9,692 bases of DNA from Nitrososphaerota archaeon (GTDB lineage: Archaea; Thermoproteota; Nitrososphaeria; Nitrososphaerales; UBA183), in NCBI GenBank assembly GCA_027886925.1, contig JAPCJN010000084.1:1-9692 (forward strand), in the 5' to 3' direction. Positions 714 through 9,692 of the stretch are shown here, in pieces. Made by a program: the position numbers and the translations under genes. The notes beneath the pieces were generated by a model, which ran no database searches, was not told the DNA's origin, and saw nothing but the letters and a program-made list of their open reading frames with translations. The number at the start of each line of letters is the position of its first letter. Positions within the stretch are counted from its first letter, which is position 1.

Positions 714-1352
714 TTGTACTACAAGGGAGAAAAGATGGGGGAGACGTCCTCCAACACTGACCTCCATGGGTTCGGACCGCAAATCAGAAGCGAACTTGCG
801 GCGCGCATCCCCTTTGACAGGAAGCTGAGGGTACTGGACGTCGGCACCGGCTTCGGGTTGAACGTCGGTTTCCTGACTGGGCACCTCTCGAGGAGCAGCA
901 AGATATGGACGGTCGATCCCTCGAGCGAGGTTCTCGACAAGGTGAAGTCGGATCTGGGAAGGAAGGCTGCTTCGACGGTCGAGTTCGTGAAGGCTAGCGC
1001 CGATAGACTAGACTTTGAAAACGGCTTCTTTGACTTTGCTGTCTCCGTGATGGTCATGCACCACATAGACTCTATCGAGCCTGTCCTGGAGGAACTTGTG
1101 AGGGTGGTAAAGGGAGGCGGAGGCCTGTTCATCGTCGACTTTTACCCGAAGGCGGCGCGCACCCTCGAGTTTCAGACCAGGCACAAGGAGCGCGACTTTT
1201 TCGAACCCGCGACGATAAAGAAGCAACTCACGAAGGCGGCAACGGATGTCAAGACTGTTGACTTTGGCCTCTGGTACCTGGTCGAGGCGACAAAACCATC
1301 GCGAAGGGAAATGTCTCCAAAGTCAGCTAGTAGAAGACCGGGTCCTTCTTAG
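714..1352 (+). CDS. Class I SAM-dependent methyltransferase
   Basis: A 212-residue Rossmann-fold methyltransferase. Motif I is VLDVGTGFGL (residues 40-49), the SAM-binding glycine loop. The acidic residue ending the second strand is D68 in TVDPSSEVL. FFDFAVSVMVMHHI (105-118) is the motif IV/post-motif segment, and VVKGGGGLFIVDF (131-143) is the strand before the C-terminal half. The acceptor substrate cannot be told from sequence; the closest resemblance is to the broad UbiE/ArsM-like group. Start: TTG 714 lies about 28 bp after a TATA-like box, which fits a leaderless transcript. ATG 735, with GGGAG five bases upstream, is a real alternative that removes only seven residues. The basic tail (SRREMSPKSASRRPG) overlaps the 3' end of the convergent nucleotidyltransferase gene by 26 bp. 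Confidence 0.88.
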   Translation: MYYKGEKMGETSSNTDLHGFGPQIRSELAARIPFDRKLRVLDVGTGFGLNVGFLTGHLSRSSKIWTVDPSSEVLDKVKSDLGRKAASTVEFVKASADRLDFENGFFDFAVSVMVMHHIDSIEPVLEELVRVVKGGGGLFIVDFYPKAARTLEFQTRHKERDFFEPATIKKQLTKAATDVKTVDFGLWYLVEATKPSRREMSPKSASRRPGPS

Positions 1353-1890
1353 TGTCCTTCCCCCTCGTCTCAGGGGGCTTGTATTTCCAGTCCAGAATCC
1401 TTGCGACGTCGAGCTCGGTCCGCGCGGGCACCAGCCGCGGAGGCTCCTCCCTGGTCCAGATGCCCTGCGAGTTGATGAGGAGCCCCTTGTTTCTGGCCTT
1501 GATCGTCATGCCTATCGTGTGCCCCTTCGGCCCGGTGGCCCACATCAGGGTGACACCCCAGGAATCCTCGCTAGGGCAGATGAACAGGTTTACCTGGACG
1601 CCCTTGTACATGAAATCTGAGATCACCGCCCCGAAGGATATCACCATGCCGCCTATCTCGACGACCCGCTTCTCGACCTTGTCCTTCCATCGCCCAAAGT
1701 CGCCGTTGGGTATCACCGCGAAGTCGATGTCGTGGACTATCGGCTCGCTCCTCCTAAGGCTTCCACCCAGCTCGCACCTCTTGTGGAGGCCCTTCGTCTT
1801 CCTCGAAAAGTCGTCTGCGATCTTCTTCGCAAACTTCGGGTCCAGGTCCTTTTTCAGCGACCTTCCTACTTTAGCTGAGACAGGAGGCAT
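1327..1890 (-). CDS. DNA polymerase beta/X-type nucleotidyltransferase, putative NHEJ polymerase
   Basis: A 187-residue protein with the Pol X palm signature. GGSLRRSEPIVHDIDFAVIP (42-61) is the GS-RR...DxD motif, with metal ligands D54 and D56. KGVQVNLFICP (96-106) is the strand that normally carries the third catalytic Asp, but here it is N101 (codon AAC). WGVTLMWATGPKGH (111-124) and KGLLINSQGIW (135-145) match the conserved TGS-H and LN-G segments of the Pol X thumb. The 8-kDa lyase, BRCT and PHP domains of larger Pol X enzymes are absent, so this is a bare catalytic core. The expected role is gap filling or end processing with the adjacent Ku and ligase. The Asn substitution makes normal polymerase activity uncertain; a structural or altered-specificity role is possible. 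ATG 1890 overlaps the ligase gene by 25 bp and has AAGGTG eight bases upstream, indicating translation as the last operon gene. Confidence 0.82.
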   Translation of the reverse strand: MPPVSAKVGRSLKKDLDPKFAKKIADDFSRKTKGLHKRCELGGSLRRSEPIVHDIDFAVIPNGDFGRWKDKVEKRVVEIGGMVISFGAVISDFMYKGVQVNLFICPSEDSWGVTLMWATGPKGHTIGMTIKARNKGLLINSQGIWTREEPPRLVPARTELDVARILDWKYKPPETRGKDTKKDPVFY

Positions 1891-2693
1891 TCGCTCGGCA
1901 CCTTGTCGTGTCTAACGCGGAGTATGAAAGGCCCGCGGAGCTTCGTGTCTTCGGTGACCTGGTTGAACCTTACCTCGACCACCGTGCCTATGGTCACCTG
2001 GCGAGGGTCGACCCTCTCGACGAACGCCCCGACCTTTCCTATGTCTACGCGCTGGCCGTTGTCGTCGTAGACCGCAATGAACCACGACCTCGGCACCCCC
2101 GTCCTCTTCATCTCTTGGGTCTCCTCGTAGCCGGTGACGAAGCAGTCTATGGTGTCGAACCTCTTCACCTTCAGCCACGAGTTGGGCTGACCATAGGTCG
2201 AGGCGGGGTTCTTCACTATCATTCCCTCGCGCCCCCGCTTGATGAACCTCTCTTTGAGCAGCAGTATCTGCTCGAACGACTTTGCTAGCGTAGACTTGAC
2301 TTCCAAGTTGTTTCCTCGAAGGATCTGATGCAGGATTTTCTTCCTCTCTGTGAGTATCAGTGGACGGACGTCCCTGTCATCGACCTGAAGCACGTCGAAC
2401 AAGAACATGCCCTCTTTTGAGACGTACTCCCCGTCGAGTATCATCCTGTGAGGGGCGTGGATGAACTCCGGGACTGTCGTGAATACCTTGGGACTGCTCT
2501 TCGGCGTATACATCTCTCCGTGCTTGCTCGAGACCACGAGCTTCTCGCCGCTTTTGAAGAGGAAGACCCTGATGCCGTCGAGCTTCGGCTCGCAAATCGA
2601 GGGGAGAGGATTCGTCGCGAGCCAGGTCCCTAGGTCGGTCTTCACTGCGTGGGAGAAGTTCTCGAGGACGTAGTTCGAGAGCTCGTCGCTCAT
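1866..2693 (-). CDS. Minimal ATP-dependent DNA ligase, LigD-like core
   Basis: A 275-residue ligase with all nucleotidyltransferase motifs in order. Motif I is EPKLDGIR (35-42), K37 being the adenylated lysine. The SSKHG element is at 55-59. Motif III is LDGEY (86-90), IIIa is FLFDVLQVDD (97-106), IV is EGMIVKNP (156-163) and V is WLKVKR (173-178). An OB-fold follows, ending in motif VI-like LRGPFILRVRHDKVPSEC (252-269), which closely resembles the R-P-FLR-R-DK-P-EC ending of LigD ligase domains. There is no N-terminal DNA-binding domain, so it is far shorter than the replicative archaeal ligase (about 550-600 residues). This form typically seals breaks in bacterial NHEJ. Start ATG 2693 has GGTGAG eight bases upstream. 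It lies 46 bp after the Ku stop and overlaps the downstream nucleotidyltransferase gene. Confidence 0.93.
   Translation of the reverse strand: MSDELSNYVLENFSHAVKTDLGTWLATNPLPSICEPKLDGIRVFLFKSGEKLVVSSKHGEMYTPKSSPKVFTTVPEFIHAPHRMILDGEYVSKEGMFLFDVLQVDDRDVRPLILTERKKILHQILRGNNLEVKSTLAKSFEQILLLKERFIKRGREGMIVKNPASTYGQPNSWLKVKRFDTIDCFVTGYEETQEMKRTGVPRSWFIAVYDDNGQRVDIGKVGAFVERVDPRQVTIGTVVEVRFNQVTEDTKLRGPFILRVRHDKVPSECLLSQLK
1899..1904 (-). promoter_or_regulatory. Ribosome binding site of the nucleotidyltransferase gene
   Basis: On the minus strand AAGGTG lies inside the ligase coding region, eight bases before ATG 1890. It fixes that start and shows the third operon gene is translated from an SD site within the overlap. 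Confidence 0.6.
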
Positions 2694-2701
2694 CGGCCCT
2701 T

Positions 2702-2707
2702 CTCACC
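2702..2707 (-). promoter_or_regulatory. Ribosome binding site of the ligase gene
   Basis: On the minus strand GGTGAG lies eight bases before ATG 2693, in the 46-bp gap after the Ku stop. This is the usual archaeal signal for an internal operon gene and supports co-transcription with Ku. Confidence 0.65.
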
Positions 2708-2739
2708 AAGACCCGAGTGATGCGGCTGCGACATCTGGA

Positions 2740-3585
2740 TTACTTTGAGATTGTGACCTTTGGCTTCTTCTTTGCGGTCGGCACCGGCGCAAGCTTACCC
2801 CCTTTCTCTTCTTCAGCCTCAAGGGCCCATGCTTCGTCGAGCTGAAGTATCCCCTCGCTCATCCCCATCAACAACCACAGCCTTCCGTCTTTCCTCTCGT
2901 ATGGATAGACCACGGCCGTGTAGAACTGATACCCCCTGCCCCAGGAGAAGAATGCGACCAGCGCTGTCTGCTTCTCGAGAAGGTATCTCGCGAGCTGTTT
3001 CACCCTCGAGACCGTCTCCTTCACCTTCTTGTCGGTGTCGGGCCCCAACTGGTATACCTCCTTGAACTTGTACTCGGCCAACCTCTCGAGCGGGACGAAA
3101 CCGTCCTTGTCGACCTCCACCCGGGTGGTCCTGTCGAAAGGCTCGATCTCTTCCCCGTCCTGCTTGTCGATGACCTCGGTGGCCGGAATCTCAATCCACT
3201 GACCCGAGACCTCCAGTTCCTGCTTCAGGAAATACCTCTTTTCCGTGCGGACCGAGACCAACCACTTTCCGTCGTATCTCACCTTCTTCTTCGCGTCGTC
3301 TGGAGAGATCTCTTCCATGTCCACTCGCTCGCCGCTAGGACCCAGCTTGTAGCGGTACATCCTTGGTACCTCACGAGAAACGACCTCTTTCCCAGTCTTC
3401 TTGTCTACCTTCATGTAGTGGACGGGCTTCAGGTCGCCGTGCGCCTTTGCAGCCCGCATGTGGTACTCGACAGCCCCTAGGCCGAGAGTCGGGATGTTGA
3501 GGCTGAGGACCCCTCGCCAAGAGGCCCTAGCAGCGGCTGCGCTGTCGGCCTGCTTCTCGACCTCAGCGAAGATGTTCTTTGCCAA
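2740..3585 (-). CDS. ku: Ku-family DNA end-binding protein (NHEJ)
   Basis: Predicted to bind double-strand break ends as a homodimeric ring and recruit the ligase and polymerase encoded just downstream. From TTG 3585 it is 281 residues, the usual size of prokaryotic Ku. RASWRGVLSLNIPTLGLG (20-37) matches the conserved Ku start (R-A-W-G-S-FGLV-P). GFVPLERLAEYKFKEVYQLG (163-182) matches the Ku core pattern (hydrophobic-P-L-E, then F-K-Y-L-P-D). YLLEKQTALVAFF (201-213) and VVYPYERKDGRLWLLMG (225-241) match later Ku strands. A Lys-rich tail (AKKKPK, 271-276) resembles the basic tails of bacterial Ku. The frame stays open to ATG 3774, but codons 1-63 of that longer version are AT-ending and include a TATA-like box. 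The extension is therefore probably promoter DNA. TTG 3600 is another possible start. First gene of the operon. Confidence 0.78.
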   Translation of the reverse strand: MAKNIFAEVEKQADSAAAARASWRGVLSLNIPTLGLGAVEYHMRAAKAHGDLKPVHYMKVDKKTGKEVVSREVPRMYRYKLGPSGERVDMEEISPDDAKKKVRYDGKWLVSVRTEKRYFLKQELEVSGQWIEIPATEVIDKQDGEEIEPFDRTTRVEVDKDGFVPLERLAEYKFKEVYQLGPDTDKKVKETVSRVKQLARYLLEKQTALVAFFSWGRGYQFYTAVVYPYERKDGRLWLLMGMSEGILQLDEAWALEAEEEKGGKLAPVPTAKKKPKVTISK

Positions 3586-3632
3586 AAATCTCTCTGCCAA
3601 AATTTCCGAGCCATCCTTATTTAATTTTGCCA
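3580..3632. repeat. Repeats TGCCAAAAAT / TGCCAAAATT / AATTTTGCCA around the Ku promoter
   Basis: Three copies of a TGCCAAAA-type element occur. TGCCAAAAAT (3580-3589) and TGCCAAAATT (3595-3604) are direct repeats 15 bp apart. AATTTTGCCA (3623-3632) is an inverted copy of the second with one mismatch. They bracket the TATA box and the expected transcription start, a typical position for an archaeal repressor site. AT-rich sequence gives chance matches easily, so the regulatory role is inference. Confidence 0.35.
3618..3625 (-). promoter_or_regulatory. TATA box for the Ku-ligase-nucleotidyltransferase operon
   Basis: On the minus strand the AT-rich run AAAATTAAATAAGG (3615-3628) contains ATTAAATA. 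A start site about 26 bp downstream falls near 3595, leaving roughly 10 bases of leader before TTG 3585. The box lies inside the longest possible Ku frame, which argues against the long version. Near-identical TGCCAAAA-type repeats surround it. Confidence 0.5.
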
Positions 3633-3808
3633 CCGTTGCTCCGATAGGAGAGGAGCCTGTGATTTTCTCTGGTTTTGAGGAATTATGTGCAAGATATTGA
3701 ATCAAGTCATCGCGGGGTTGGATTTCGGCGCTTCGTTGGTCCGTCGCACCGACTAATCGAAACCGTATCACCATACTCCTGGCTGTATCAGAATCGTTTC
3801 ACCGAACC

Positions 3809-3816
3809 GATATAGT
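3809..3816 (+). promoter_or_regulatory. TATA-like box for the four-helix membrane protein gene
   Basis: GATATAGT is centred about 28 bp before GTG 3840 and 40 bp before ATG 3852. It favours a leaderless GTG start, or a transcript with a 12-base leader to the ATG. With the Ku promoter it makes 3586-3839 a divergent promoter region; nothing else was recognised there. Confidence 0.4.
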
Positions 3817-3839
3817 TGCACCGCTCGCATACATCGCCA

Positions 3840-4340
3840 GTGATTCAAGAAATGACACAGCAAAAGGAAACTTTTCCGAACACGGCATCGGTGCTCGCGA
3901 TAATCGCGGGCTCCCTCATGATCGCGGCAGCGGTCATCATCCTCATTTTCTCTGCCTATGTCGTCCCGTACATGAACAACTTCATCTCCCAGGGCATCCG
4001 CTCGGGCGCTTTCAACGTGACCTCGCCTCATTTCAATGGGAGCTTCATCAACCACATCAACGGCACCACCTTCTCCCCCTCTCAGATTCCGGGCTTCGTG
4101 GCGAGCCTAATGCAGGGGATAGGGCTGTTCGGGCTGATATCGGGAATCATCGTCCTCGTCTCGGGAGCGATGATCAGGACCAATCCAAGTCAGCGCACCC
4201 TTTGGGGAGTGCTCATTCTGGTCTTCTCGGTCCTCAGCTTCTTCGGGACGGGAGGGTTCGTCATAGGCGCAATTTTGGGGATACTGGGCGGCATAATGAC
4301 CCTCACATGGAGAGCGCCGACGGCGACGACGGCGGCCTAG
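3840..4340 (+). CDS. Four-helix integral membrane protein of unknown function
   Basis: A 166-residue protein (from GTG 3840) with four predicted membrane helices at about residues 16-42, 88-111, 120-136 and 138-158. Between helices 1 and 2 is a loop of about 45 residues that must be extracellular if the N terminus is inside. It carries three N-glycosylation sequons (NVT at 59, NGS at 66, NGT at 74), consistent with an exposed archaeal surface loop. Helices 2-4 are rich in Gly and Ile/Leu (GLISGIIVLVSGAMI; GAILGILGGIM), as in small four-helix archaeal membrane proteins of unknown role. No catalytic motif is visible. ATG 3852 is an alternative start. It lies 71 bp upstream of, and on the same strand as, the membrane-anchored regulator at 4412, so the two may form a unit. 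Confidence 0.8.
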   Translation: MIQEMTQQKETFPNTASVLAIIAGSLMIAAAVIILIFSAYVVPYMNNFISQGIRSGAFNVTSPHFNGSFINHINGTTFSPSQIPGFVASLMQGIGLFGLISGIIVLVSGAMIRTNPSQRTLWGVLILVFSVLSFFGTGGFVIGAILGILGGIMTLTWRAPTATTAA

Positions 4341-4411
4341 GCCTACGAGCCGTTCAAGGACGGACAAGGTAAAGAGCCGACGAGCCTAGCGGGAGCGCGA
4401 GGTCCGAGCCG

Positions 4412-4942
4412 GTGCAGAAGCTCAAGATACTGCTGATACTGCTTCTGGTCGCGACGTCCGGCCTCGCGGTCTCGATATACTTGCTCGCGCTGATCTTCGC
4501 GCGGACAGGGTCGCCGCTATCCGTCCTCTATCAGGTGCTGACCGGCGCGTTCCCTCCAGGCCTGTCTTTCTTCATACCGCTATCCTCTCTCCTTTTCCTC
4601 AGCACCGTCTTAGCAAGCATGGTTGGCGTGATCTATTTCCTTGTGCTGCCTGAGATGAAGAACTACTACTACGAATCCGAGCCCGGGAATGGCGCGAGCG
4701 CGATGGTCATGAGGACCTTGAAGCCCGAGGAGAGGAAGGTCGTCGGAGTTCTCAAGGTCCACGGAGGTACATACCTCCAGAAGTTCATCACACAGGAGAC
4801 AGGCATGTCGAGGCTGAAGACCCATAGGGTCGTCGCCACGCTCTCGGAGAGAGGGATCGTCCACATCGAGAAGAAGGGGAACACCAACGAGGTGTCGCTC
4901 GTGAGATGGTTCATCGACGGGATGGGCAGCTCAGACACGTAG
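4412..4942 (+). CDS. Membrane-anchored winged-helix transcriptional regulator
   Basis: A 176-residue protein with two membrane helices (about 5-30 and 53-80) and a C-terminal DNA-binding domain. From about 103, LKPEERKVVGVLKVHGG begins a winged helix-turn-helix. TYLQKFITQETGMSRLKTHR (120-139) is the helix-turn-helix core, and VVATLSERGIVHIEKKGNTN (140-159) is the last helix and wing. This arrangement is known from predicted membrane-associated regulators of the COG2512 type. The short loop between the helices (31-52) would face outside and the DNA-binding domain the cytoplasm, suggesting a one-component membrane sensor. GTG 4412 has GAGGT eight bases upstream; an in-frame TAA a short distance upstream leaves no other good start. 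Target genes are unknown; the preceding membrane protein is the obvious candidate partner. Confidence 0.82.
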   Translation: MQKLKILLILLLVATSGLAVSIYLLALIFARTGSPLSVLYQVLTGAFPPGLSFFIPLSSLLFLSTVLASMVGVIYFLVLPEMKNYYYESEPGNGASAMVMRTLKPEERKVVGVLKVHGGTYLQKFITQETGMSRLKTHRVVATLSERGIVHIEKKGNTNEVSLVRWFIDGMGSSDT

Positions 4943-4963
4943 CGACCGGAAGGGAACGAGCCT

Positions 4964-5968
4964 CTATCTTATGCCGGTGTCGATCGAGACCGTGACGCCA
5001 GAGGCGACGCCCGAGACGACCGTGAAACCCTTTGGCAGGGCTGAGCCGCAACCCAGGAAAGTGCAATTTGACAGGTTCAAAGAATAGCTCCCGGGAGCCA
5101 AAGAAACCTTCAGCGACCCTGACACCTCGCACCCATCGGAGAGCCAATCGACCGGGAGCGCCAAGCTATGGCCTGCTGAAATCGTTATGATTGCTTCGAT
5201 GGAAGAATAGGGCGACGGTGCTGGACCTTTGGTGGCGTTTGCCCTGCAAACTGGGACGATGGGTCCGATGTCGGCTTGCAGTGCTAGAGTCCCGTTCCCT
5301 ACCGCCGCTGTCGTGGCAGTTGTCTGCTGCCCTCCGACCGAGAATTCCAGAGTCGCAACTGCTCCCCATTCGTCTCCGGCCACCACCGTGTAGACTCCGG
5401 GGCTGAGCGCCTGGAGGGATGACGAGTCCGAATATTCCCCGCTCACGGTGACGTTGGCTGACATCGACGTCGGTGACGCGTTGCTGCCGGGAAGCACCGC
5501 TGCCAAGTCGCTCGTCGGTTGGAAGAGATAGGCGGTCACGAGCCTGATCAACAGCGGGCATGGGACGACCGGATAGATCCGCAGCGGTTGAGCCTGCGAG
5601 GCGTTTCCTGGCCTCCACGGCCCCGGAAACACCGCGACACCGAACGGGTAGGCGCCTGTCCCGCAAGCGCCGAGTGAAAGGCTGTCGACCTTCCATAGTT
5701 GCGCGACGGTGACGTTGTTGGCCGTCGCCTCGGCGTTATACTCACTGACGGTTATCCCGAGCCTGCTTCCAGAGGTGAGGTTGGTTGTGTTGAGCGCCAG
5801 CCGGAGCTGCAGGCCGTTGGACGCGGCCGTCGACGTACTGCCAGTCTCGGAAGCGCCTGTGGAAGTAGTCGAACCTCCCTGCGAGGGGGCCTTGAAGACG
5901 AGCAGGGACGCTCCCGCCAAAAGAGCCGCCACCACGACGACCGCAGCGACTGCCTGCCAGGGCTTCAT
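4964..5968 (-). CDS. Secreted, membrane-tethered protein with a C-terminal beta-sandwich-like domain
   Basis: A 334-residue protein. Residues 5-25 form one hydrophobic helix (anchor or signal), followed by a Ser/Thr/Gly linker (28-50), so the rest is outside the cell. It contains many N-X-S/T sequons (for example N59, N63, N85, N122) and six cysteines (102, 137, 241, 280, 302, 307) that could form disulfides. The outer part looks like two beta-rich domains: about 52-212, and 224-334 after a QQTTATTAA linker. The second has GPIVPVC (235-241), SLKVSLAPGSYSLNLSNC (285-302) and the ending VSIDTGIR. This resembles the GP-CPV...L-PG-Y...D-GIR pattern of a secreted transthyretin-like fold. No enzymatic motif is seen. 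ATG 5968 lies 26 bp after a TATA-like box, fitting leaderless initiation. Convergent with the regulator gene, 21 bp apart. Confidence 0.82.
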   Translation of the reverse strand: MKPWQAVAAVVVVAALLAGASLLVFKAPSQGGSTTSTGASETGSTSTAASNGLQLRLALNTTNLTSGSRLGITVSEYNAEATANNVTVAQLWKVDSLSLGACGTGAYPFGVAVFPGPWRPGNASQAQPLRIYPVVPCPLLIRLVTAYLFQPTSDLAAVLPGSNASPTSMSANVTVSGEYSDSSSLQALSPGVYTVVAGDEWGAVATLEFSVGGQQTTATTAAVGNGTLALQADIGPIVPVCRANATKGPAPSPYSSIEAIITISAGHSLALPVDWLSDGCEVSGSLKVSLAPGSYSLNLSNCTFLGCGSALPKGFTVVSGVASGVTVSIDTGIR

Positions 5969-6096: not shown

Positions 6097-6954
6097 TTGC
6101 CCGACGTGAGCATAGGGACATCGGGTTGGTCCTACAAGGAATGGGAGGGCGTGTTCTATCCGCCTAATGAGAAGAGCAAGCTCTCCTTCTACTCGAAGTA
6201 CTTCAAGACCGTAGAGATCGACTCCACCTTCTACGCGTACCCAAAGCAGGGGATGGTCTACGGGCTCGCCAGGTACACGCCTGACGATTTCTCTTTCACC
6301 GCAAAGCTCCCGAAGCTAATCACGCACGACAAGAAGCTAGACCTCGACAAGGGGGTGCACGCAGACCTGATGAGGTTCCTGGGACTGATGAAGCCCCTCA
6401 TGGACAAGAGGAAGCTGGGCCCTCTGCTGATCCAGCTGCCTCCGAGCTTCACCTACGAAAAGGACGCGAAGAAACTCAGAGGGTTCCTCGGAGGGCTCCC
6501 AGGCGACGTCTCCTTCGCTGTGGAGTTCCGGAACCGTACTTGGCTGAGGGCCGAGACGTGGGACATGCTCAAGAAGAACGGCGTCGCGAACACAATCGTC
6601 GACGAGCCCTTGCTCCCGCCGGAAACGAACGTCACGGCCGACTTCTCGTTCGTAAGGTGGCACGGGCGAGGGGAGAGGCCGTGGTACAACTACAGGTACA
6701 AGGAGGCAGAGCTCGACCCTTGGGTCACGAAGGTGAAGGACGTCGCCTCGAGGGTCAAGAAGACCTACGGTTACTTCAACAACCACTTCCGTGGGTATGC
6801 GATCGAGAACGCCCTCCAGATGCTGGGGAAGCTCGGCGCCGCGAACGCCGAACAGAATGAACTCCTAAAGGCCGTGAGCAAGAGGATAGATGGGCAGCTG
6901 AAACTCAAGTCGGACAAGAAGACAGCAGGCGCGACGCTCCTGGACTTTGGTTGA
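6097..6954 (+). CDS. DUF72 (YecE-like) family protein
   Basis: A 285-residue protein with the full set of DUF72 motifs. GTSGWSYKEW (7-16) opens the first strand. FKTVEIDSTFYAYP (36-49) carries the conserved E-x-x-S/N-T/S-F-Y. FSFTAKLPKLITH (65-77), LLIQLPPSF (110-118) and FAVEFRNRTWL (140-150) follow. FVRWHGRG (185-192) and YFNNHFRGYAIENA (226-239) complete the pattern. DUF72 proteins adopt a TIM-barrel-like fold and are widespread in bacteria and archaea; their biochemical role is not established. The conserved Glu, Arg and His residues suggest an enzyme active site, possibly on nucleic acid or sugar substrates (inference). Length is normal. TTG 6097 is preferred because the TATA box lies 27-28 bp upstream; GTG 6106 would lose three residues. 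The next gene has its own promoter. Confidence 0.93.
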   Translation: MPDVSIGTSGWSYKEWEGVFYPPNEKSKLSFYSKYFKTVEIDSTFYAYPKQGMVYGLARYTPDDFSFTAKLPKLITHDKKLDLDKGVHADLMRFLGLMKPLMDKRKLGPLLIQLPPSFTYEKDAKKLRGFLGGLPGDVSFAVEFRNRTWLRAETWDMLKKNGVANTIVDEPLLPPETNVTADFSFVRWHGRGERPWYNYRYKEAELDPWVTKVKDVASRVKKTYGYFNNHFRGYAIENALQMLGKLGAANAEQNELLKAVSKRIDGQLKLKSDKKTAGATLLDFG

Positions 6955-7785: not shown

Positions 7786-8229
7786 TTGGGCGATTTCGAT
7801 TTGCGGACCTGCAGGCTCGATGACTTGGGGGACCTATTGAGAATAGAGAAGGTCGCCTTCCCGGACGACGCATATAGCAAGGCGGTCTTCTTGTTCTACC
7901 TGATGACCGAGCGCGACGGTTTCATCGTGGCTCTCAAGGGCGGCTCGGTCGTTGGATATGTGATCGCGACAAACCACGGTGGGCAGGGATTGATCCAGTC
8001 GATAGCCGTGTCGCCAGAGTTCAGGCGGAGAGGGATCGGTGCGAAGCTGATGCAGGCGGCCATAGCTCGCCTGGCGGTGAAGTTCGATCGCGTATTCCTT
8101 CAGGTCGACGCCAAACAAGAGTCCACCATCCGCTTCTACCGCGCTCTCTCCTTTCGAGAGACTGGCAAGGTGCTCAAGAGGTATTATCGTAACGGAGATG
8201 ACGGCATAGAGATGGTGAGGGAAATCTAG
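7786..8229 (+). CDS. GNAT-family N-acetyltransferase, RimI/Ard1-like
   Basis: A 147-residue acetyl-CoA-dependent N-acetyltransferase. The N-terminal GDFDLRTCRLDDLGDLLRIE resembles the (D)F-LR-A---DL--I--IE opening of archaeal Ard1/RimI proteins and supports TTG 7786 over TTG 7801. Motif A is IQSIAVSPEFRRRGIGAKLM (70-89), with the acetyl-CoA pyrophosphate loop R80-x-x-G83-x-G85. Motif B follows: LQVDAKQESTIRFYRALSF (105-123) has the usual S-x-x-FY-x-x-x-F pattern near Y118. GDDGIEMVREI (137-147) ends the protein. The relatives acetylate protein N termini or ribosomal proteins, but the substrate cannot be assigned, and this gene may not be the main archaeal N-terminal acetyltransferase. No TATA box is seen at leaderless spacing; a perfect palindrome lies immediately upstream. 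Probably co-transcribed with the preceding small gene. Confidence 0.88.
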   Translation: MGDFDLRTCRLDDLGDLLRIEKVAFPDDAYSKAVFLFYLMTERDGFIVALKGGSVVGYVIATNHGGQGLIQSIAVSPEFRRRGIGAKLMQAAIARLAVKFDRVFLQVDAKQESTIRFYRALSFRETGKVLKRYYRNGDDGIEMVREI

Positions 8230-8359
8230 TCAGGAAATGCGTCCCTGAAGGTTTTCCATGGATATTAGGCACCATGATTAGCAAACTACCTCTTACGCCC
8301 TCGAGTCTCTGGGAAGGTTCCAACAGTTTAGCCGCTGCGATGAATCCTTGGCGAACTTC

Positions 8360-8367
8360 TAAATATA
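8360..8367 (+). promoter_or_regulatory. TATA box for the secreted protein gene at 8398
   Basis: TAAATATA is the best TATA match in the window. A start site about 26 bp downstream falls near 8390, leaving a leader of about eight bases before ATG 8398. The rest of the 168-bp gap after the GNAT gene shows only a weak TCAGG/CCTGA pairing (8230-8248). Confidence 0.6.
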
Positions 8368-8397
8368 CCAGTTCCTTGAAGGCATCGAAAGTCCAGA

Positions 8398-9132
8398 ATG
8401 AATCCCAAGAGAGGCCTCTCTTCCGCCGCCAAGGCGGGGGTCGTCGTCCTCGTGATCGTCATCGTGTTGGGGGGAGCTTACCTCATCCCTTCGTTGTCGA
8501 AGGGTAGCGGCACCAGCACGACCTCCTCTCAATCGTTGGCGTCTGGCTCGAACCCTGGCGGGGGCAACCAGACATTAGGACTTCTCTCGCTCTTCGGATA
8601 CTTCCATCAGATGCAGATGATGGACATTGTGAACACCCTCTCCCAACAAGACGGCTCCGTCCAGCAGCAGACCCTCTCGTATATCGTCCTGGGGACGGCC
8701 ACGTTCAACTCCACCCAGCATACCAAGGTCCAGTTCTCGGAAACAGGAGTGGCCAACGAGGTAGTCGCCTGGTTCAACCCGACAGGCGTGGTCGACAGGC
8801 TGGACATCATCGGAGCGAGGAACTACACCGGACCGGGCGCGGCCATCCTGGCACAGACCTACACCACGGCATTCTCGGTCATCACGGCTATAACGAACAA
8901 CTCGACGCTTCTTTCGTTCCTCAGCAAGACGTCTGAGAACACGACGACCATTGGGTCAACGCAGCTGGACGTCGCGACATACCATCTCGCAGTGCCGACC
9001 CCGCCGTACAAGACCATCACGGTGGAGTATGCGACGATCCCCGGGACCAATCAGAAACTCGCCGTCTATCTAGACGAGAAGACGATCGACGGGGCAGAGA
9101 CGACCGTCCAAGTCTTGAGCCTTACAAAGTGA
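8398..9132 (+). CDS. Secreted, membrane-tethered protein of unknown function
   Basis: A 244-residue protein with a basic N terminus (MNPKRG), one hydrophobic helix (12-32) and a Ser/Thr/Gly linker (36-57), so residues from about 58 are predicted outside the cell. The outer domain is Thr-rich and has several N-X-S/T sequons (N57, N104, N142, N168, N181), consistent with a glycosylated archaeal surface protein. Its first part is helical (LLSLFGYFHQMQMMDIVNTL, 62-81); the rest looks beta-rich, ending TTVQVLSLTK. There are no cysteines and no catalytic motif. I do not recognise a family. The anchor-linker layout matches the 334-residue protein at 4964-5968, but the outer domains do not look alike. 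ATG 8398 is supported by a good TATA box. Convergent with the PfpI-family gene, 31 bp apart. Confidence 0.82.
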   Translation: MNPKRGLSSAAKAGVVVLVIVIVLGGAYLIPSLSKGSGTSTTSSQSLASGSNPGGGNQTLGLLSLFGYFHQMQMMDIVNTLSQQDGSVQQQTLSYIVLGTATFNSTQHTKVQFSETGVANEVVAWFNPTGVVDRLDIIGARNYTGPGAAILAQTYTTAFSVITAITNNSTLLSFLSKTSENTTTIGSTQLDVATYHLAVPTPPYKTITVEYATIPGTNQKLAVYLDEKTIDGAETTVQVLSLTK

Positions 9133-9163
9133 GCAGACACCAAGGCTCTTGGGGCGACCGGCC

Positions 9164-9692
9164 TTATCGTCGAATTCGAGTAGGGGTCGTCTTTGCGGTA
9201 GTTGACAACGCTGAGATTATCTCAGCGCAGAACGCAGGGAGGTCGTCCGGGACTCGGGAAGTGATCAATCCACCGTCTCTCACCACGGCCTTGTCGACGT
9301 AGATGCCCCCAGCGTTTGTGACGTCATCCTTTATCGACTTGTAGCAGGTGACCGTCTTACCCTTCAACACTCCCGCTGAGACGAGCATCGACCCGGCGTG
9401 GCAAATCGCACCGATGACCTTCCCCTCGCCGTAAGCGTCCTTGACGAACCTTACCATGGCCTCGGACCTTCTCATGTAGTCAGGTGCGAACCCGCCAGGG
9501 ATGACCACCGCGTCGAATTGTCGCGCTTTGGCATCCTCGGCCGACATGTCGGCCTTGACCTCGAGACCGTGCTTGCTCTTGTATGTCGCACCGGCCGTGG
9601 GGGCGACCACCGAGACCTCTGCCCCGGCCTCCCTCAGCCGGATGAGCGGGTACCAAAGCTCCAAATCTTCATACATGTTCTCGGCGAGCACG
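9164..9692 (-). CDS. DJ-1/PfpI-family protein, 5' end cut by the window edge
   Basis: The frame is open to the right edge, with about 176 codons seen. Comparison with archaeal PfpI suggests only a few N-terminal residues are missing: the visible LAENMYEDLELWYPLIRLRE aligns with the PfpI start just after its first strand. The GTG at 9691 is therefore probably an internal Val. Counting it as residue 1, the conserved acidic residue is E8. FDAVVIPGGFAPDYMR (59-74) is the oxyanion-side strand. GAICHAG (94-100) is the nucleophile elbow, with C97 and H98. KDDVTNAGGIYVDKAVV (121-137) and SRVPDDLPAF (145-154) are typical of PfpI. Family members include hexameric intracellular proteases and glyoxalase or deglycase-type stress enzymes; which activity applies cannot be decided here. 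The Thr/Arg tail is not part of the fold. Confidence 0.9.
   Translation of the reverse strand, partial: VLAENMYEDLELWYPLIRLREAGAEVSVVAPTAGATYKSKHGLEVKADMSAEDAKARQFDAVVIPGGFAPDYMRRSEAMVRFVKDAYGEGKVIGAICHAGSMLVSAGVLKGKTVTCYKSIKDDVTNAGGIYVDKAVVRDGGLITSRVPDDLPAFCAEIISALSTTAKTTPTRIRR

Follow-up and report, generated by a model that had tools for sequence, protein, structure and literature searches.

A Ku–ligase–PolX gene cluster of Nitrososphaerales archaea as a candidate minimal end-joining module with an altered PolX catalytic triad

This work concerns three genes located on contig JAPCJN010000084.1 of a Nitrososphaerota archaeon of the order Nitrososphaerales (assembly GCA_027886925.1), within a stretch of 9,692 nucleotides, which was analyzed at its full length and is referred to below as the window. 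The three open reading frames (ORFs), all on the minus strand, encode, in this order, a protein that is probably a very divergent Ku, a minimal ATP-dependent DNA ligase and a small protein with the fold of the Pol X family (PolX). In a preliminary description of the window they were read as a compact operon for non-homologous end joining (NHEJ), with Pol X in the polymerase slot. The positions given there proved exact: the Ku and ligase genes are separated by a 46-bp gap and the ligase and PolX genes overlap by 25 bp. The GGTG motif that it placed eight bases before both the second and the third gene is found at this distance only before the PolX gene, while 10 bases separate it from the ligase gene; both may be Shine-Dalgarno sites. 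The Ku frame stays open upstream of its TTG start codon to an ATG at position 3774. The TTG at 3585 matches the first residue of most of the relatives compared (one relative, P0158, is longer), and the in-frame stretch up to 3774 is missing from most of them.

All three products gave Pfam matches above the respective cut-offs, i.e., Ku PF02735 (31.2 bits, cut-off 25), ATP-dependent ligase PF01068 (76.2 bits, cut-off 26.2) and Pol beta thumb PF14791 (38.5 bits, cut-off 25), and their NCBIfam matches were all below cut-off. Thus, the Ku match, chosen beforehand in the preliminary description as the test of its reading, was found, and so was the Pol X match proposed there as a check of the 187-residue protein. 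The ratio of nonsynonymous to synonymous substitution rates (dN/dS) was 0.06–0.20 in eight pairwise comparisons covering all three genes; therefore, the ORFs are not chance ones, and the three genes are confirmed as real.

When the GTDB species collection was searched by pattern scan, the query being the 187-aa PolX, 11 loci were obtained (eight described by title as Thaumarchaeota and three as Nitrososphaerales), and in 11/11 of them Ku, ligase and PolX follow each other in the same order and on the same strand, the Ku frame of L001 being broken. The sample names (palsa, AcS, 40cm) indicate a soil habitat. Among 300 genomes of the order (the order sample), 86 gave a match to the PolX profile; the short subfamily is present in 29 of these, and full-length PolX frames account for most of the rest. 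The complete module was found in 21 of the 29 short-subfamily genomes, counting G001, whose Ku frame is broken, and G004, in which a stop interrupts the PolX match, so the conserved synteny anticipated in the preliminary description was observed. In G476, G493 and G425 the ligase and PolX genes lie together and the Ku side is cut by a contig end, and in G497 and G430 PolX itself is at a contig end. The PolX subfamily (29/300 genomes) and the module Ku (24) share 23 genomes (Fisher p 7e-28, a test which ignores kinship). Outside this overlap, a Ku of the same type lies at a contig end in G495 (G495:C58:2-730), and the short PolX was not found in that genome. Of 398 genomes sampled across the phylum, 10 gave any PolX-profile match, and two have the close subfamily. 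No relative of the module was confirmed on viral contigs, and no PADLOC defence model matched it. In one relative only, a 190-aa ORF (L010:7300-7869) is located between the ligase and PolX genes; neither Pfam nor PADLOC matched it and the PDB gave nothing significant, and its stretch FDYLA...YMVEIT may resemble the core of PD-(D/E)xK nucleases.

The fold of the PolX protein is secure. The Pol beta palm and thumb, which define the Pol X family, were recognized by Pfam and in the structural model, in which the 187-aa chain ends at the thumb and a short low-confidence tail, and the nearest protein by sequence is the PolX of T. thermophilus. The feature that sets the protein apart, overlooked in the preliminary description, is found in the active site: active Pol X polymerases have three carboxylates, and here the triad is Asp, Asp and Asn (D54, D56 and N101) in 132/132 aligned rows. 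These rows include 120 database proteins, the best 120 of 694 matches to a profile built from 12 Asn rows, and several of the 120 represent the same loci as those 12. S44 and R47, beside D54 and D56, are likewise invariant in 132/132 rows, and N101 aligns with an Asp in T. thermophilus PolX as well as in the small PDB chains named Repair DNA polymerase X. The placing of Pol X in the polymerase slot, which assumed a working polymerase, is not supported as it was worded, since all subfamily rows examined have an Asn in place of the third catalytic Asp.

At this position an Asp was found in all controls, i.e., in 40/40 full-length PolX (chosen from order-sample frames of 516–640 aa, some of them near-identical) and in 4/4 small PolX (those with a tblastn match among five tried), which rules out that the Asn is a general trait of archaeal PolX. 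When counted by loci, it occurs in 27 of the 28 PolX loci covering the column (10 of them being the genomes of L002–L011, with L012 left out of the count), the exception, L050, being a decayed copy with stops; in the alignment of loci with the controls, two fragment rows are gapped there. It is encoded by AAC in 20 and AAT in 10 of 30 loci, and dN/dS of the PolX gene is 0.09–0.19. The steric-gate pair is WA in this PolX versus YF in the controls, and the position of the base-contacting Asn is occupied by Thr in 27/28 loci versus N (26), G (9) or S (5) in the 40 controls. A nearby acidic residue in place of the third Asp was considered and rejected: the invariant acidic residues are D27, D54, D56, E159 and E174, none in the strand of N101. 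Small stand-alone PolX of the phylum (L014, L015, L016 and L019; frames of 156–205 aa) keep all three Asp of the triad, and nothing matching the module Ku or ligase was found within ~1.5 kb of them.

By motif, we take N101, S44 and R47 to be the probable equivalents of D256, S180 and R183 of Pol beta. In that enzyme, the metals are bound by D190, D192 and D256, the triphosphate is held by S180 and R183 (PMC13105415), and the D256A substitution abolishes synthesis (PMC3753620). No paper on Pol beta D256N was found in a search of the open-licence literature. Judged from the alignment, the module PolX has, in place of the metal-A Asp, an amide that is uncharged yet able to bind metal.

The 281-aa product of the first gene is a single-core protein, probably, though not certainly, a very divergent Ku. 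PF02735 scored 31.2–32.4 bits (cut-off 25) and was matched by 43 of the 46 family members at E 0.01, so that the Ku of archaeo-prokaryotic NHEJ has a weakly matching counterpart in the module. One relative (P0176, 77% identity) is filed as a Rhabdochlamydiaceae bacterium, likely owing to a misbinned contig. For the ligase, the best NCBIfam row was NHEJ_ligase_lig (96 bits, below the cut-off of 227.75). The motif I lysine is kept in 12/12 aligned ligases and the other motifs align (the ligase of L004 has KxEG in place of KxDG), which agrees with the complete set of motifs noted in the preliminary description and, together with PF01068, identifies the ATP-dependent ligase expected of an NHEJ system of this kind.

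Table 1. Coordinates of the features of the window and of DUF72 genes next to the module in related loci.
Feature	Position	Strand	Remarks
Divergent Ku-type protein	2740..3585	-	281 aa, TTG start; PF02735
Minimal ATP-dependent DNA ligase	1866..2693	-	275 aa; PF01068
Small PolX-fold protein, palm and thumb only	1327..1890	-	187 aa; PF14791
First catalytic Asp codon of PolX (D54)	1729..1731	-	D in 132/132 rows
Second catalytic Asp codon of PolX (D56)	1723..1725	-	D in 132/132 rows
Asn codon of PolX (N101), place of the third catalytic Asp in other PolX	1588..1590	-	N in 132/132 rows
Ligase motif I lysine codon (K37, KLDG)	2583..2585	-	From alignment
GGTG, possible Shine-Dalgarno site of ligase gene	2704..2707	-	10 bases before ATG; putative function
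GGTG, possible Shine-Dalgarno site of PolX gene	1899..1902	-	8 bases before ATG; putative function
DUF72 protein, possible associate only	6097..6954	+	~2.5 kb from Ku gene; PF01904, 220.6 bits
DUF72 neighbour gene	L004:490-1236
DUF72 neighbour gene	L009:8595-9254
DUF72 neighbour gene	L010:4813-5457
DUF72 neighbour gene	L036:771-1430
DUF72 neighbour gene	L040:1051-1710
DUF72 neighbour gene	L108:2503-3240

The search for a LigD-type polymerase of the archaeo-eukaryotic primase (AEP) type (PF21686), with positive search controls, gave a match in 0/11 relatives' genomes, by which the window was judged, and in none of the 29 genomes with the short PolX in the order sample. The AEP set in the same genome, which the preliminary description named as a refutation of its reading, was thus looked for in relatives and not found there. 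Within the whole sample, the AEP model matched 54/300 genomes (42 strongly and 12 weakly; the weak matches may be replicative primase) and the bacterial-type Ku model Ku_bact (TIGR02772) matched 40, in 35 of which it was accompanied by a strong AEP match. The AEP or Ku_bact genomes show no overlap with the 29 PolX-module genomes or with the 24 module-Ku genomes (for Ku_bact, Fisher p 0.02, again ignoring kinship). As the AEP/Ku_bact set and the PolX module share no genome, there are therefore two end-joining sets in one order. A 2020 study reported that Nitrososphaerales acquired an NHEJ complex from bacteria (PMC7554672), and four thaumarchaeal Ku (of Nitrososphaera and Nitrosocosmicus) are listed in PMC11936186; both probably belong to the canonical set.

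A LigD-type 3'-phosphoesterase (PF13298), which the preliminary description proposed to seek elsewhere in the genome, is absent from the window and is encoded away from the module in 24 of the 29 module genomes. It was found in 9/11 relatives and 15/18 further module genomes versus 8/28 non-module genomes of the order, the latter hand-picked (Fisher p 5e-5, ignoring kinship). The 23 full-length matches in module genomes span 363–372 bases for 107 model positions; among the eight non-module matches, six span 291–303 bases, that of G467 spans 369 and one is partial, which may suggest that a longer form of the enzyme goes with the module.

Another candidate associate is a DUF72 protein. Its gene is ~2.5 kb away from the module in the window and likewise in L005, and in 10/29 module genomes a DUF72 gene (PF01904) lies 34–247 bp from the module, either downstream of PolX, co-directional (G430, G493, G517) or convergent (G009, G445), or upstream of Ku, co-directional (G459, G509, G004) or divergent (G010, G491). 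A Pfam check of the neighbouring proteins identified DUF72 in 6/6. Members of the family are present somewhere in 29/29 module genomes (95 matches in total), and the adjacency expected by chance from copy number and genome size is ~0.02 genomes (Poisson, ignoring kinship). Because four arrangements occur, a functional link is suggested rather than one inherited neighbourhood, and the DUF72 protein is a possible unrecognized partner of the module. The other neighbours in the window (714-5968 and 7786-9691) are ordinary, i.e., a methyltransferase, a DUF6114 membrane protein, a DUF7343 winged-helix protein, a RimI-like acetyltransferase and a PfpI/DJ-1 family protein.

Considering these data together, we regard it as fairly probable that the three genes form a distinct minimal end-joining module, in which PolX serves to align ends or gaps and its synthesis is attenuated or lacking. 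What we infer takes in DNA binding, a partnership of the proteins, end joining, a role for the Asn and the links to the phosphoesterase and DUF72. A divergent Ku homodimer would thread onto the broken ends and gather the ligase; the palm-thumb PolX would dock at the paired ends or at a short gap and bind a nucleotide there, its main task being to align ends or to sense gaps; and the ligase would then seal the break. Synthesis by PolX would be attenuated or absent because the catalytic-metal Asp is changed to Asn, with the first two Asp and the Ser/Arg kept. The separately encoded phosphoesterase probably cleans 3' ends, and the DUF72 protein would be an associate. More tentatively, and with rather less confidence, the module can be imagined as an archaeal end-joining machine of its own, with an own-branch Ku, a DUF72 partner and PolX as a pseudo-polymerase, which would keep the nucleotide- and gap-binding site without the catalytic-metal Asp and would sense or align ends rather than synthesize DNA, or do so far more than it synthesizes.

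Several observations weigh against the alignment module. An Asn can still bind metal, so synthesis is not necessarily lost. A full-length PolX is also encoded in 9/11 relatives and could supply synthesis, making a second polymerase less needed. Synteny is broken in three of the 29 module genomes: in G474 the ligase and PolX are together and Ku is on another contig, in G438 PolX stands alone with a broken Ku elsewhere, and in G414 (L050 / L103) a decayed PolX copy with stops lies beside a ligase remnant, this lineage losing the module. The remaining points concern Ku. The PF02735 genome search matched it in 7/11 relatives only (five above the cut-off). The Pfam score of the module Ku is 31–32 bits versus 146–169 bits for three canonical Ku of the order. 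Comparison with the bacterial-type Ku of the order by hhalign gave 2%, i.e., no profile match, with a shallow profile. PDB sequence searches retrieved no PDB Ku, giving chance matches, e.g., to ADP-sugar pyrophosphatase, whereas the canonical Ku alignment of the order picked up three PDB Ku sequences. Finally, the AlphaFold model is poor (predicted local distance difference test, pLDDT, 50.7).

The main alternative is that PolX is an active gap-filling polymerase with an Asp-Asp-Asn triad, in which the Asn carbonyl binds the catalytic metal, perhaps Mn2+, and that the module is a three-part NHEJ machine. The invariance of the first two Asp, of the GS-motif Ser and of the second Arg of RR in all 132 rows agrees with such an activity, as does the intact fold, and known inactive PolX often lose residues of the dNTP site, unlike this one (PMC9226535). 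Nevertheless, none of the intact rows examined retains the third Asp, which is kept in 44/44 controls, its change to Ala kills Pol beta synthesis (PMC3753620), and the WA steric gate and the Thr at the base-contacting position point the same way. We consider an active polymerase rather unlikely and rank the alignment or gap-sensing role above it. Far less probable is that the module acts in nick or base-excision repair, or in another DNA transaction, instead of the joining of double-strand breaks: small PolX and small ligases do act in base-excision repair elsewhere, but the module includes Ku, which is known to bind DNA ends, in 21/29 order genomes (with five more cut by contig ends), and the PADLOC and viral searches returned no defence match and no viral copy.

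It is still more doubtful that the 281-aa protein is not Ku but some other beta-barrel protein, as its low PF02735 scores, incomplete detection in relatives, failed hhalign and PDB comparisons and poor model could suggest, together with Ku_bact at 17.5 bits versus a cut-off of 150. The PF02735 match lies above its cut-off, and in a structure search (VIA) with the poor model the first 34 of 50 rows were Ku or DNA-PK/NHEJ complex entries, which is supporting evidence only. The last alternative, that the window's organism has a complete AEP-type set as well and the operon is accessory, is hardly credible given the lack of AEP matches in the 11 relatives and 29 module genomes.

By composition, the preferred end-joining module varies on the prokaryotic NHEJ-type systems and may well work like one, differing in the AEP, absent as judged on the relatives, and in the incomplete triad. 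Archaeo-prokaryotic NHEJ of Methanocella paludicola (Ku, Lig, AEP Pol and phosphoesterase) also has Ku and a separate ligase with polymerase-type proteins in an operon (PMC4797286), and a LigD-type phosphoesterase is shared with most module genomes. In contrast to it, the relatives with the module show no AEP match, the third protein has a Pol X fold with an Asn triad, the phosphoesterase is encoded elsewhere, and the module Ku gives no profile match to the bacterial-type Ku of the order. A 2021 review recognized a complete archaeal NHEJ set only in Methanocella (PMC8708640), and a 2020 survey found Ku with the LigD-LIG domain in 10/243 archaea (PMC7719229). The bacterial-type Ku/LigD sets of the order likewise combine Ku and ligase for end joining, but 0/300 genomes hold both sets.

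Noncanonical prokaryotic PolX (Prostova et al. 2022, PMC9226535) share with the module PolX an altered Asp triad, for which 302 variants were described, and a link, there statistical, to NHEJ genes. These proteins are inactive, keep the PHP exonuclease, have a mean length of 573 aa (only 10/2935 are shorter than 400 aa) and in many cases lack residues of the dNTP site, whereas the module PolX has 187 aa, no PHP domain, a kept phosphate-binding motif and a Ku operon partner. The missing PHP domain and the retained motif mark it as an altered PolX of another kind. The PolX2 group, archaeal members included, is similarly devoid of the N-terminal and PHP domains, but has an intact active site and an extra helical C-terminal domain (PMC12926913), neither of which is found here; no link of PolX2 to Ku is made in the available part of that paper. 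The small Repair DNA polymerase X chains of the PDB (174–178 aa) resemble the module protein in palm-thumb size and in a strong profile match, and differ from it by the Asp at the third position. They are presumably the African swine fever virus enzyme, which is not known to have a Ku partner.

On the whole, the reading given in the preliminary description is supported in part. It saw the operon as closer to the eukaryotic arrangement, which is true of the list of parts, as a Pol X fold occurs beside Ku and an ATP ligase in eukaryotic NHEJ (Pol mu, Pol lambda, TdT), but not of the proteins themselves, the module PolX being nearest to that of T. thermophilus and its Ku being single-core. In eukaryotes, Ku forms a heterodimer and contains vWA domains. 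Eukaryotic Pol X enzymes differ in having an unaltered triad as well as 8-kDa and BRCT domains (PMC9226535).

No paper on a Ku–ligase–PolX operon was found in the open-licence literature, subscription papers, preprints and supplements being outside the scope of that search. An end-joining set free of AEP, distinct from the canonical one of the same order and sharing no genome with it in the sample, would provide a three-protein system, ready for the bench, in which to ask if polymerase chemistry is required to join ends or if a Pol X-shaped aligner suffices. It would also represent a prokaryotic partnership of Ku and Pol X, otherwise known from eukaryotes, and may offer the first functional lead for the DUF72 protein.

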